Positions 777 to 20,750 of a stretch of 41,056 bases of DNA are shown here, one piece after another. The first letter of the stretch is position 1, and each line of letters starts with the position of its first letter. Source of the stretch: a virus; the IMG/VR virus record IMGVR_UViG_3300027985_000512, positions 1-41,056 of that record; one strand, given 5' to 3'. The notes under the pieces were generated by a model that was not told the DNA's origin, did no database searches, and saw nothing but the letters and a program-made list of their open reading frames with translations. The translations under genes and the position numbers were made by a program.

Positions 777-804
777 CGCCAGTGTTCCACGTGGAACACT
801 GGCG
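777..804. promoter_or_regulatory. parS-like site 1 in a 28-bp perfect palindrome
   Basis: Bases 783-798 read TGTTCCACGTGGAACA, a perfect 16-bp palindrome that matches the ParB-binding parS consensus I associate with Pseudomonas. The symmetry continues to 777-804, giving 14 bases on each side with no mismatch. It lies in the gap between the first and second early genes. There is no T-run after it, so it is not a typical terminator. Confidence 0.7.
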
Positions 805-829
805 ACACTCAAGCAATGAGGATACTGCC

Positions 830-1201
830 ATGCGAATCAACTCCTATGCCCCGTTCTACCTGCTGGCCATGAACGATAGCCACCACTTCATCGATGTCCC
901 CGAGCATGCCACCATTGAGTGCGAAGGCTGCTACAAGGGGGAACGCGAAGGATCGTTCCTCATGTCTGCCGATGCCTTCCGGTTCTATGACCTCCCCCGG
1001 CTGCTGGAGGCTGACGGGCAGGAAAGCGTGCTCTTTCTGGACAATCAACGGGGGGCATGGCTCTTCTACCGCGAGGATGGGTATGCGCAAGGAGCAAAGA
1101 CCGTCTACCTTGGGGAGTTCAAGCAAGTCCCCGCTTCCGTGGCTCTTGCCCGTGAAGCCTGGACGAAAGATCCTCAAGGCCGCTACTGGGTCGCAGGTTA
1201 A
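830..1201 (+). CDS. Hypothetical early protein
   Basis: A 123-aa soluble, mildly acidic protein with no domain I recognise. An in-frame GTG exists further upstream inside the palindrome at 777-804, but ATG at 830 is preferred because a GAGGAT ribosome-binding site precedes it at good spacing. It carries aromatic-rich segments (YAPFYLL near the start, RFYDLPRLL mid-protein) and ends 12 bases before the next start. It belongs to the cluster of small unknown early genes. Confidence 0.7.
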   Translation: MRINSYAPFYLLAMNDSHHFIDVPEHATIECEGCYKGEREGSFLMSADAFRFYDLPRLLEADGQESVLFLDNQRGAWLFYREDGYAQGAKTVYLGEFKQVPASVALAREAWTKDPQGRYWVAG

Positions 1202-18223: not shown

Positions 18224-18224
18224 C

Positions 18225-20750
18225 TCAGTAATCCCCCTCTGATCCAATAGTCCCGGCTCTTAGAGCACGGAGTAATTCAGGCCGCAACAAAGTTTCCCCT
18301 ACCGGCTTCTTCCCGTATGGGAGAATACGACTTCCACGCATCAAGTTAAGCAGAGTACGCTGCCACTGCTTACCTACGTCCATAGCCTCGATGGGCTCAA
18401 GACGCTTGGCAGCCTCAATAAGATACTTCCGCTCTTGTGGGTCCAGCAGCACTTCGGCAGTGGTGCCCCCCGAGATTGCACGAGCCGAGGCAGTAGGCCC
18501 ACGGGGGAAGGTGAAGTCCGCCCCCAGCAAGCCGCGCAGTTCGCTCTTAGCCTCAGGGTTGATCTTTAGTACCTTCTCAATCTCAGACCCGGCATTGCCT
18601 GAGGTAGTGGCATTGCCGTACAGCAGCTTGCGCACAGACTCTTCAAAGCTTTGCTTGTTGGTTGCCTCTAGCTTGCTGGCTTGGGCCTTGTAGGGGAGGA
18701 TCGTATCCTTGAAGTAAGCGTCAGCGTCTCTGGCCTTTTGAAGCGCCACGCCAGCGGGCTTGTACTTACGCCCCCATACATCAAGGTCCTTCTCAAGCGA
18801 CTCCCTCAGGCGGTTCAGGGGGAGGGCTTCGTCGGCTGGCATCTTGCGTTCGATTGACTTAATACGGCGCAGTACGTCCCGTGCCTCCTTGAAGGATACC
18901 TCGGTCGGCTTCACTGTGCTAAACGACTTCGGCGGAACGACCTTCTGCTCCTGCCAGCCCCCCGCCGTGCGTACAGGCCGAGTGGCACGTGTAGGCATGG
19001 GGGAGAGGGGACGGCTGCGGGAGACGGTGCCCGAGGCGTCGTTCACAATGCCAATTGCAGCCTTCATTTTAGGGCTGAGCTTCTTCAAAAGCTGGTCGCT
19101 GATGCTGCCCGCATCCCCAGATTTGGCGAAGGTGCGGCCTAGTGTCACTTTGGGGAGGGGGGTGCGCTCGGCGGAGGTAATGGCCTTCTTGTAGAAGTCG
19201 GTCGCTTCGCTAACCCCCTTGTTCACCTTGTCAACCACGCCCTTATACAGCGGCAGGGTTTCGTCCCCGGCCAGCCGGCTGTATCCAAGGCGCTCTTTGC
19301 TGAACTTGTCAGCGGCGTCGGTAATCTTCATGCTGCGGATACGGTCGATGCCCTTGCCGAACACTTCCCCGGCCTTGGTGCCCATAGTACCAAGCAGCCC
19401 CCCGGCAACTGCATTCCAGACCCTATCCTCCTCGTTCTGCACCGGCTTAAGGCCAGCTTGCAGCGCGCCCCATGCGCCTTGAGCAAGAGCTTTGCCGGGG
19501 AGGCTGCCGTAAGACAGCACCTCTCCTACGGTACGGCCCAGATCGGCCCCACTGAACCCGGAGTCGGTCGGGTCGTACTTGTCATACATGGCGGCCCGGT
19601 TGGCAGCGTCCTCGCTGAACTTGGCGCGCATCTCTTCGTCGCCTAGCAAGCTGGAGGCTAACTGCCCTCCCCCGGCTGCGGCGTTCGCTACGATGTCGTT
19701 AAGGCCGGCTTTAACCCTACCCGGCAGTCCGCCCTGAGAAAAGCCTTGTCGGCTCATCTCGTTGACCAGTCGGCCAAACCAAGTGCCAGAGGCGTCTTGG
19801 TCAGCGGCCTGCAAAGCCTGCTGCTCCGCTTGAACCTCTTCCGGGGAGGCCCCCTGAGCTGCCATGATCTGAGCGGTAAGGTCCCGGCCTTTGTCGCGGA
19901 TACCCGAAAGCAGGCCCCCCGGCTCTGGCGGCTGCTGGCCGGCAGCGGCGGGCGGCGGCGGGGCGGGGGCGGCAACCGGAGCGGCAGGCTGGTCCTCGAT
20001 GCCGAGAATGGCGCGCAGCCGGGCGGCATCGGCGTCCTCTCGGGTCTGAGGGGCGGCGGGGGAGGGCGAGGCGGACAGGATTTGCTGGAGGCGGTCAGCC
20101 TCGGACGTTCCACGTGGAACATCGGGCATGGGGGCCTGCGGAGCGGGCTGCTCTCGTGAAATCTGGCGGGCATTCCCCCGCATGCCGCTTACTTCTGCGG
20201 CAATTTCTTCCTCGGTGGCACCCTCATCAAGCCGCTTCATGATGAAAGCGGACATCTCGCGCTTGTTCATCTTGCCGCCCTTCACTTTGCCCATGATCTT
20301 AGGCACGTAAGCCCGCGTCTCAGCGGGCATTTTGTTGATGTCACGACCGACCCGCTCAAGTCGGCCGGGTCCCCCGTTGTATGCCGCAAGAGCCAGTCGG
20401 TCGTCCCCGAACTGCTCATGCAGCTTGCGCAAGTAGGCCCTACCAAGAGCCTCGTTGTACTCCGCGTCCCCGCGCAGCCTCTCCTCGTCATATTGGCGAC
20501 CGGCGTACCGGGCAGCTTCCGGGCCAGTTGAAGGCATTACCTGAGCCCTGCCCAGTGCCCCCACGGGGGAGACGGCTGACTGGTCGCCGCCCGACTCTAC
20601 CTGAATCAGCGCCGGCCATAGCCGTTCGGTCGGGTCCTCAGGCACAGGAAGCCCCTGCTTGGCCAGCGTAAACCGCTCCGCGATCTGCTTGTCGTTATAC
20701 CCGGCAGATCGCATCTTTAGGATAAGCTTTTCGCCCTCTGACCTATTCAT
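18225..20750 (-). CDS. Ejection protein with N-terminal lytic transglycosylase domain
   Basis: An 841-aa virion protein. Residues about 42-125 form an SLT-type lytic transglycosylase: catalytic E52 in IQVESGGDQSAVSPVGALGR, then AQVMPST, and ALAAYNGGPGR. A Pro/Ala/Gln-rich linker (about 200-300) leads into a long helical region. This is the arrangement of T7 gp16-like and related internal virion proteins, which enter the envelope at infection and open peptidoglycan. It is the largest gene in the window. Its start shares a base with the previous stop. parS-like site 4 lies inside it near codon 210. Confidence 0.88.
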   Translation of the reverse strand: MNRSEGEKLILKMRSAGYNDKQIAERFTLAKQGLPVPEDPTERLWPALIQVESGGDQSAVSPVGALGRAQVMPSTGPEAARYAGRQYDEERLRGDAEYNEALGRAYLRKLHEQFGDDRLALAAYNGGPGRLERVGRDINKMPAETRAYVPKIMGKVKGGKMNKREMSAFIMKRLDEGATEEEIAAEVSGMRGNARQISREQPAPQAPMPDVPRGTSEADRLQQILSASPSPAAPQTREDADAARLRAILGIEDQPAAPVAAPAPPPPAAAGQQPPEPGGLLSGIRDKGRDLTAQIMAAQGASPEEVQAEQQALQAADQDASGTWFGRLVNEMSRQGFSQGGLPGRVKAGLNDIVANAAAGGGQLASSLLGDEEMRAKFSEDAANRAAMYDKYDPTDSGFSGADLGRTVGEVLSYGSLPGKALAQGAWGALQAGLKPVQNEEDRVWNAVAGGLLGTMGTKAGEVFGKGIDRIRSMKITDAADKFSKERLGYSRLAGDETLPLYKGVVDKVNKGVSEATDFYKKAITSAERTPLPKVTLGRTFAKSGDAGSISDQLLKKLSPKMKAAIGIVNDASGTVSRSRPLSPMPTRATRPVRTAGGWQEQKVVPPKSFSTVKPTEVSFKEARDVLRRIKSIERKMPADEALPLNRLRESLEKDLDVWGRKYKPAGVALQKARDADAYFKDTILPYKAQASKLEATNKQSFEESVRKLLYGNATTSGNAGSEIEKVLKINPEAKSELRGLLGADFTFPRGPTASARAISGGTTAEVLLDPQERKYLIEAAKRLEPIEAMDVGKQWQRTLLNLMRGSRILPYGKKPVGETLLRPELLRALRAGTIGSEGDY
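20106..20121. promoter_or_regulatory. parS-like site 4 inside a coding region
   Basis: CGTTCCACGTGGAACA contains the perfect 14-bp core GTTCCACGTGGAAC (20107-20120). It encodes the D-V-P-R-G-T segment of the transglycosylase/ejection protein linker, a region under weak protein constraint. Confidence 0.6.

Follow-up and report, generated by a model that had tools for sequence, protein, structure and literature searches.

Why would a phage genome carry several copies of parS, the site to which bacterial ParB binds, and no ParB of its own? Most bacteria segregate their chromosomes mainly by ParABS, and four parS-like palindromes occur in the IMG/VR virus record IMGVR_UViG_3300027985_000512, positions 1 to 41,056 (hereafter the window: the whole stretch analysed, a virus sequence of 41,056 bases that is possibly incomplete). 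By sequence these palindromes are parS sites and a real feature of the genome, and we think it probable that they recruit the host's chromosomal ParB, possibly for the positioning or partition of the phage genome.

Four parS sites in the window

A motif scan of the window found the 14-mer GTTCCACGTGGAAC exactly at 784-797, 10067-10080 and 20107-20120; a first-pass annotation had placed the latter two correctly and had given the first as 785-796. The core of site 2 is GTTCCACGTGAAAC, at 2719-2732. The single mismatch ascribed to this site (2718-2733) holds relative to GTTCCACGTGGAAC, but the deviation falls at a known degenerate parS position, and the degenerate ParB-binding consensus GTTYCACGTGRAAC is matched exactly by all four sites, which bears out their initial assignment to parS. 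No fifth match to GTTYCACGTGRAAC was found in the 41-kb record, allowing up to 2 mismatches. The sites are as follows:

777..804 (core 784-797), no strand assigned: parS site 1, a perfect 28-bp palindrome centred on TGTTCCACGTGGAACA
2718..2733, no strand assigned: parS site 2, TGTTCCACGTGAAACA, whose first base adjoins the stop codon of a DUF932 gene
10066..10081, no strand assigned: parS site 3, AGTTCCACGTGGAACA, with an exact 14-mer core and a 16-mer that is off at 1 of 16 positions
20106..20121, no strand assigned: parS site 4, CGTTCCACGTGGAACA, likewise exact in the 14-mer core and off at 1 of 16 positions

Compared with the 16-bp chromosomal-type parS palindrome TGTTYCACGTGRAACA, sites 1 and 2 match at 16/16 positions and sites 3 and 4 at 15/16. 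The 16 bp of site 1 are those of Pseudomonas aeruginosa parS2 and parS3, which belong to the top-affinity class, and P. aeruginosa ParB binds all ten parS, perfect palindromes best and those with a single mismatch slightly less (PMC4368675). The parS of Burkholderia cenocepacia chromosome I is given as tGTTNCACGTGAAACa (PMC7022226). The claim that four such sites are far beyond chance also stands: the expectation for exact GTTCCACGTGGAAC under a third-order Markov model of the record is 1.2e-4, no other 14-mer in the record has three or more dispersed copies, and three of its six perfect 14-bp palindromes are copies of GTTCCACGTGGAAC.

Three of the sites lie next to the ends of open reading frames (ORFs). 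Site 1 begins 17 bases past a stop codon; site 2, taken as a 16-mer, is immediately 3′ of one, with a GC-rich hairpin (2740-2763) shortly 3′ of it; and site 3 shares the G of the TAG that ends a 54-amino-acid ORF (9903-10067). Site 4 lies inside a transglycosylase gene and is composed of that gene's rarer codons (within-gene frequencies 0.20, 0.09, 0.23, 0.09 and 0.14; joint 5e-5).

No recognisable phage ParB

As first noted, no ParB-like gene is visible in the window: ParB_N (PF02195) gave 0 matches, and a tblastn comparison with five chromosomal ParBs found no homologue (best E 0.23). The same PF02195 search recovered its positive controls in 5/5 bacterial genomes and in one parB-bearing 'phages' record. 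Nor was ParB_N found in phage BUCT555 (discussed below), in any of 39/39 parS-bearing IMG/VR records of at least 20 kb, or in 11/12 parS-bearing named phages; these sets leave out two inoviruses with six parS each. Pfam and PHROGs scans of the window named no ParA, and no search aimed at ParA was made. Because the sites are present and no ParB gene is recognisable, the phage most likely borrows the host protein. The twelfth of these named phages, Stenotrophomonas phage BUCTxx99 (OR529408.1), has two adjoining ParB-fold domains, at 34175-34399 and 34813-35064, and one exact parS 15 kb from them.

The idea that parS in viral contigs stems from contaminating host DNA is not supported, ParB_N being found in 0/39 such records. 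In the five bacterial genomes that we examined, the 2-4 exact sites each are all on the contig with the parB gene, unlike those in the parS-bearing viral records (the reversed control gave one match, in the 8.5-Mb genome G151). Individual viral records may still be contaminated. CAKLQH020000011.1 (L441) and the 'Acinetobacter phage MD-2021a' records, annotated with soj/parB, tolQ, zitB and betU, look bacterial chromosomal.

parS in relatives of the phage

The genes of the window that bear on the comparison with relatives are these:

830..1201, plus strand: S-adenosylmethionine lyase-related early protein (PF23780), directly downstream of site 1
1878..2717, plus strand: DUF932 protein (PF06067, phrog_12094), an early gene with parS beside it in some relatives too
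10587..12473, plus strand: family A DNA polymerase
18225..20750, minus strand: 841-amino-acid protein with an SLT transglycosylase domain, in the late gene block, containing site 4
27996..28964, minus strand: major head protein, used as a query for relatives and 74% identical to that of BUCT555
36200..37603, minus strand: terminase large subunit (TerL), which with DUF932 bounds a divergent early/late interval where four relatives have parS

Capsid and portal group the window with Stenotrophomonas phage BUCT555 (MW291508), the nearest named relative found, with Myxococcus phage Mx8 further off. BUCT555 has exact parS at 473, 2371 and 37885 and near sites at 79 and 39381, 3/5 of them in annotated ORFs, and in this genome too the parS 14-mer is the sole 14-mer with three dispersed copies. 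The DNA of the two phages can be aligned only in the capsid gene, the portal gene and one short late stretch, not around the sites, and because the similarity is so confined their sites are not one shared block of DNA. Among the early ORFs tested, matches to BUCT555 at E<=1e-3 are confined to two, those for the DNA polymerase and the SNF2-type helicase. DUF932 as the owner of the sites was rejected: BUCT555 has the sites and no DUF932 match even at E<=10.

A second set of relatives (79 loci) was chosen by the early DUF932 protein and not by parS. In the window, sites flank this gene, one 1.09 kb before it and one directly after it. Exact parS beside the gene, defined as from 2 kb upstream to 200 bp downstream, occurs in 9/79 loci representing six non-identical lineages with one to three sites each, and the concentration there is marked: 17 exact sites in 233,108 bases near the gene versus 4 in 890,312 elsewhere, with 0 in both for the reversed control. 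The interval separating the divergent terminase and DUF932 genes contains every such site of L443, L446 and G140 and 2/3 of those of L456. The 42.4-kb record L268/G140 and L143, a capsid relative of the window, share 96% identity over an alignment of 2,951 bases. Where DUF932 lineages are 68-85% identical in their aligned parts, sites are retained with changed spacing and number, which we read as turnover under constraint. The whole records, searched for 50 of the 79 loci, comprise 8 with exact sites (two of them near-identical), 2 with near sites only and 40 with none; the reversed control gave four matches in these 50 at up to one mismatch.

In a marine family, selected through its terminase, exact parS lies within 500 bp upstream of terL in 9/80 loci listed, and 9 matches fall in 33,334 upstream bases versus 4 (2 exact) in 414,303 others (reversed control 0/0). 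Upstream of terL, the marine contigs L272, L109, L309 and L310 (and L300 at its matching end) combine TGTTCCACGTGGAACA with TGTTTCACGTGAAACA at a spacing of 23-24 bp, a pattern seen in members selected for parS.

Other searches from the window returned less. DNA of positions 1-20000 had no match in the phage collection, the transglycosylase protein query found no relatives, and the window's TerL found two distant fragments and nothing more. The relatives of the window come mostly from Proteobacteria, and judged from them a spore-forming host is unlikely. The other recognisable genes are those for the portal, an SNF2-type helicase, a VRR nuclease and a VapE-like protein; the scanned ORFs, many of the early ones being without assignment, include none recognised as an integrase or repressor. 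The S-adenosylmethionine-lyase-like gene (830-1201) possibly has an anti-restriction function. A perfect 15-bp tandem repeat of 7.7 copies occupies 4025-4140, where a putative open frame would encode an SGTAA repeat.

parS in unrelated phages

TGTTCCACGTGGAACA is present in at least 120 IMG/VR stretches and the reversed 16-mer in 0. Among exact 14-mers (n=121, from the 120 IMG/VR loci listed), 60 have T..A flanks, where uniform base use predicts 1 in 16. In a search of records for 43 of 80 loci listed with the 14-mer, 39 had a single match and none had three or more, and the reversed control matched once (G006). Many single 14-mer matches may be background, and we place weight on the 16-mer, on records with multiple sites and on position. 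For the 16-mer, the records of at least 20 kb (39 of 80 loci listed) include 13 with at least two sites at up to one mismatch and 10 with at least two exact sites. Reversed-motif controls were empty in most scans, the exceptions being G006, G151, the 50 DUF932 records, a set of named phages scanned at two mismatches and one phage found by BLAST.

The latter search covered a phage collection of 50,697 records and needed about 17 matching bases, so its counts are minimal. With site 1 as query, it found 42 phage records, 33 of them overlapping the core: 19 named for Pseudomonas (15 phage names), 2 each for Vibrio and Acinetobacter, six 5-6-kb records named as microviruses or like them, and one each for Stenotrophomonas, Alcaligenes, Pseudoalteromonas and an unassigned phage. 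The other 9, of Escherichia type, matched the last six site bases plus flank and nothing more, and none of the 33 was named for a host in the Enterobacteriaceae. The reversed query found two records of one phage. With GTTTCACGTGAAAC as query there were 319 matching records; names from Gram-positive genera account for at least 230 of these, the commonest being Listeria (91), Microbacterium (50), Bacillus (26) and Gordonia (23). This count lacks a reversed control, the query's flanks are A+T-rich, identity reaches 99% in only 172/319 best matches, and among the 'Listeria phage' records some that lack annotation may derive from bacteria. No Escherichia, Salmonella or Klebsiella phage was among 60 of these matches taken at spread positions. 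Enterobacteriaceae phages probably form a large share of the phage collection. The Enterobacteriaceae and Pasteurellaceae are given as exceptions to the presence of a chromosomal par operon (PMC4368675). In the same 60 matches, nine Microbacterium phages (e.g. NC_047976.1, 42256-42272) have the GTTTCACGTGAAAC match overlapping a DNA-binding/helix-turn-helix gene.

Whole-record counts, made for 11 of the 33 core-overlapping records, phi29 and a control, gave 6 exact sites in vB_PpS_SYP, 4 each in phi29 and Vibrio phage phi 3, 3 each in M5.1, vB_PpuM-Amme-3 (Amme-3) and J2-1, 2 in COT4 and 1 each in five further named phages. No exact site was found in Mx8, Mx9, ppBjS10J-1, Ruegeria 45A6, RHph_I3_18, Mwe-JY13 or ctMlz233. 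In phi 3 (KP280063.1, T5-like, Demerecviridae), the sites are at 822, 2935, 109191 and 111304, one pair within the left terminal repeat as annotated and the other at corresponding positions close to the right end; in SYP (OQ183418.1), they are at 295-7669 and 107117, all six within 8 kb of the ends. Were these ends the first to enter, ParB could load while most of the genome was still outside. The densest parS found is in two inoviruses, PQ006135.1 (L521) and PQ006097.1 (L522), recorded as Inoviridae of about 6 kb from rodent faeces, with six exact TGTTTCACGTGAAACA each and 0 in the control. At two mismatches, the motif occurs in 7/14 named phages and the reversed control in 6/14, nearly as often, so such matches mean nothing. 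The first-pass annotation had called host-type parS without ParB an unusual strategy, a description that does not fit sites shared by phi29 (a published precedent), a T5-like phage, Otagovirus and filamentous phages.

The variant of the site matches the host group in part. GTTCC-type sites occur in Pseudomonas and Stenotrophomonas phages, and GTTTC-type sites mostly in phages of Gram-positive hosts, with Proteobacterial ones too. Xanthomonas citri belongs to the same family as Stenotrophomonas. Its parS, TGTTCCACGTGGAACG, is of the GTTCC type (PMC3937727), which Myxococcus shares as well; the initial description of the window's sites as the form associated with Pseudomonas was therefore too specific, the more so as the nearest named relative infects Stenotrophomonas.

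Proposed recruitment of host ParB and its alternatives

The independent recurrence in BUCT555, the parS locus beside DUF932 in six lineages and the sites in unrelated phages together make recruitment of host ParB, which had been among the possibilities first raised, much the best reading of the sequences. The individual parts of this proposal differ in strength: host ParB would very probably bind the sites, and positioning or partition as the function under selection is an idea to which we give somewhat less than even weight. From ParB biochemistry, we would expect a ParB dimer to load on each site, to close as a CTP (cytidine triphosphate) clamp and to slide onto the flanking DNA, so that the early region, plus part of the virion-gene region from site 4, would become a ParB-coated partition complex. 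Through this complex the phage genome, on infection or during replication, could become linked to host ParA and perhaps to SMC; the link would position it on the nucleoid and, in slow or deferred infections, deliver it to the daughter cells. The scheme would be a non-sporulating counterpart of that in phi29. The data suggest that host-type parS is widespread but patchy in phages. Tentatively, and with some doubt on our side, parS without parB may be a general, repeatedly evolved viral strategy, by which tailed phages (among them the T5-like one with sites in its terminal repeats) and filamentous phages would use the segregation clamp of their hosts to position and pass on their genomes; the parS variant would track the host ParB and predict both the host and the capacity for persistent or deferred infection.

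Several observations weigh against recruitment for partition. The annotation looks lytic, a lifestyle in which partition would serve no obvious need. Sites 3 and 4 depart from the 16-mer, albeit at the first base only, and half-parS motifs in the window are not enriched beyond the full sites. (Recruitment through half sites was rejected, as these are no commoner than the full sites account for.) Among 80 capsid relatives listed from IMG/VR, exact sites occur in one record only (L143), with one near site in each of seven others, and the 21 records of at least 30 kb have no exact site. Relatives as close as L442 (59%, by DUF932) and the structural relative L519 have no parS, and of the named marine TerL relatives HTVC027P has an exact site and 023Pt_psg01, DSL-LC04 and HTVC023P do not. 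The site-free capsid and DUF932 relatives mean that the sites are dispensable in the lineage. Absence of the sites from close relatives with conserved surrounding genes, which the first-pass annotation had named as evidence against its proposal, gave a mixed picture: it prevails in the capsid set, while 9/79 loci of the DUF932 set have exact sites beside that gene. The match between site variant and host is also imperfect: Myxococcus parS is of the GTTCC type according to the literature, yet Mx8 and Mx9 have no exact site, and the Pseudomonas phages Amme-3 and SYP, as well as Proteobacterial marine phages, have GTTTC-type or mixed sites. In Amme-3 and SYP, GTTCC half-sites occur together with GTTTC ones, so variant and host correspond only partly.

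Host ParB might instead be recruited for gene control, spreading from the early/late divergent region to damp or time transcription as a host-sensing switch. The placement between divergent terminase and DUF932 genes in L443, L446, G140 and, for 2/3 sites, L456 fits this idea, as does parS upstream of terL in part of the marine family, and P. aeruginosa ParB, when in excess in Escherichia coli, silences a test plasmid whose parS is near repA (PMC4368675). We nevertheless consider it rather unlikely: site 4 is within a late coding gene, BUCT555 has 3/5 sites in annotated ORFs, the exact position turns over between relatives, and the phi29 sites are scattered over 8.3 kb of 19.3 kb. Decoy titration, in which replicating phage parS would outnumber the host sites and disable chromosome segregation or division, also seems unlikely to us. 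With four sites, one phage genome has as many as each of the five bacterial genomes (2-4 exact), so phage replication would swamp the host sites, but filamentous phages generally persist inside living cells, where harm to the host is costly, and the many sites (six each) in two of them therefore favour partition or positioning over host damage. The parS mimics of SGI1 both expel the helper plasmid and stabilise SGI1 itself (PMC10954446), a precedent for titration, but ParB is non-essential in pseudomonads (PMC7022226), so little would be gained in a lytic cycle.

The remaining alternatives do without ParB. Repeated exact intergenic palindromes are typical of operators, and many early ORFs have no assignment, so the sites could belong to a phage-encoded repressor or replication protein that shares the parS sequence by accident; this is very unlikely given that one site is mid-gene, that the motif varies at a known degenerate parS position and recurs in unrelated phages, and that, among the early ORFs tested, those common with BUCT555 are limited to the DNA polymerase and the SNF2-type helicase, DUF932 not being found there. 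RNA hairpins at gene 3′ ends, acting as terminators or mRNA stabilisers, would explain why three sites follow stop codons, why site 1 RNA folds at -26.6 kcal/mol (z -4.2) and why terminator-like patterns lie over site 3 on the minus strand. Site 1, however, is alone in folding well: at site 2 the hairpin is weak and a separate strong one adjoins it (the two together have z -2.2), the RNA of site 3 forms other pairings (z -1.5), and site 4 falls within coding sequence. Sites 1 and 2 lack a T run directly after their parS stems, and the common unit is the 14-mer and not a stem length, which makes hairpins highly improbable as the explanation. Coincidence does produce single 14-mers in viral contigs, as the 39/43 records with one match only indicate, but three or more sites were found in 0/43, and about 1e-4 exact copies are expected here; chance was rejected on the Markov expectation, the uniqueness of the 14-mer and the reversed-motif controls, and we regard its probability as negligible.

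If recruitment of host ParB is correct, ParB would be an added host factor in phage infection, and there would be a mechanism for partitioning non-integrated phage genomes, in the carrier state and in filamentous phages. The sites would also form a sequence signature that may help to predict the hosts of uncultured phages.

Comparison with known systems

The closest parallel in kind is phi29, whose genome is reportedly trapped in the spore by host ParB (Spo0J), as found by Meijer et al. in 2005; to our knowledge, host ParB acting on a phage has been published for phi29 and spores only. Spo0J-dependent spore entrapment of phi29 is cited in PMC9437464. Like the window, phi29 has several exact host-type parS and no ParB_N gene, and it is described as virulent; its 4 exact sites and 1 near site spread over 10446-18774. 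The window shares with it several host-type parS beyond chance and the lack of any phage-encoded ParB found. In phi29, however, host ParB serves spore entry, the motif is TGTTTCACGTGGAACA, and none of the window's early proteins matches those of phi29.

BUCT555 is alike in its common structural module, its 3 exact and 2 near parS and its lack of ParB_N, and differs in an early region that is largely unrelated, with no DUF932 found. P1-type phage-plasmids also have a centromere site on a phage genome, but phages of this type encode their own ParA/ParB together with the cognate site, and no ParB was found in the window. SGI1 is likewise an element with parS-like sites that exploits the ParABS of another replicon; it differs in mimicking the parS of an IncC plasmid rather than a chromosomal one, and in being an integrative element and not a phage (PMC10954446). 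The literature searched, which held no bioRxiv preprints and few subscription papers, contained in its accessible parts no report of host-type parS in phages besides the statement on phi29 and Spo0J. A phage that carries host-type parS and uses the host's ParB thus has its precedent in phi29, and the breadth seen here, in Gram-negative and filamentous phages, looks new.

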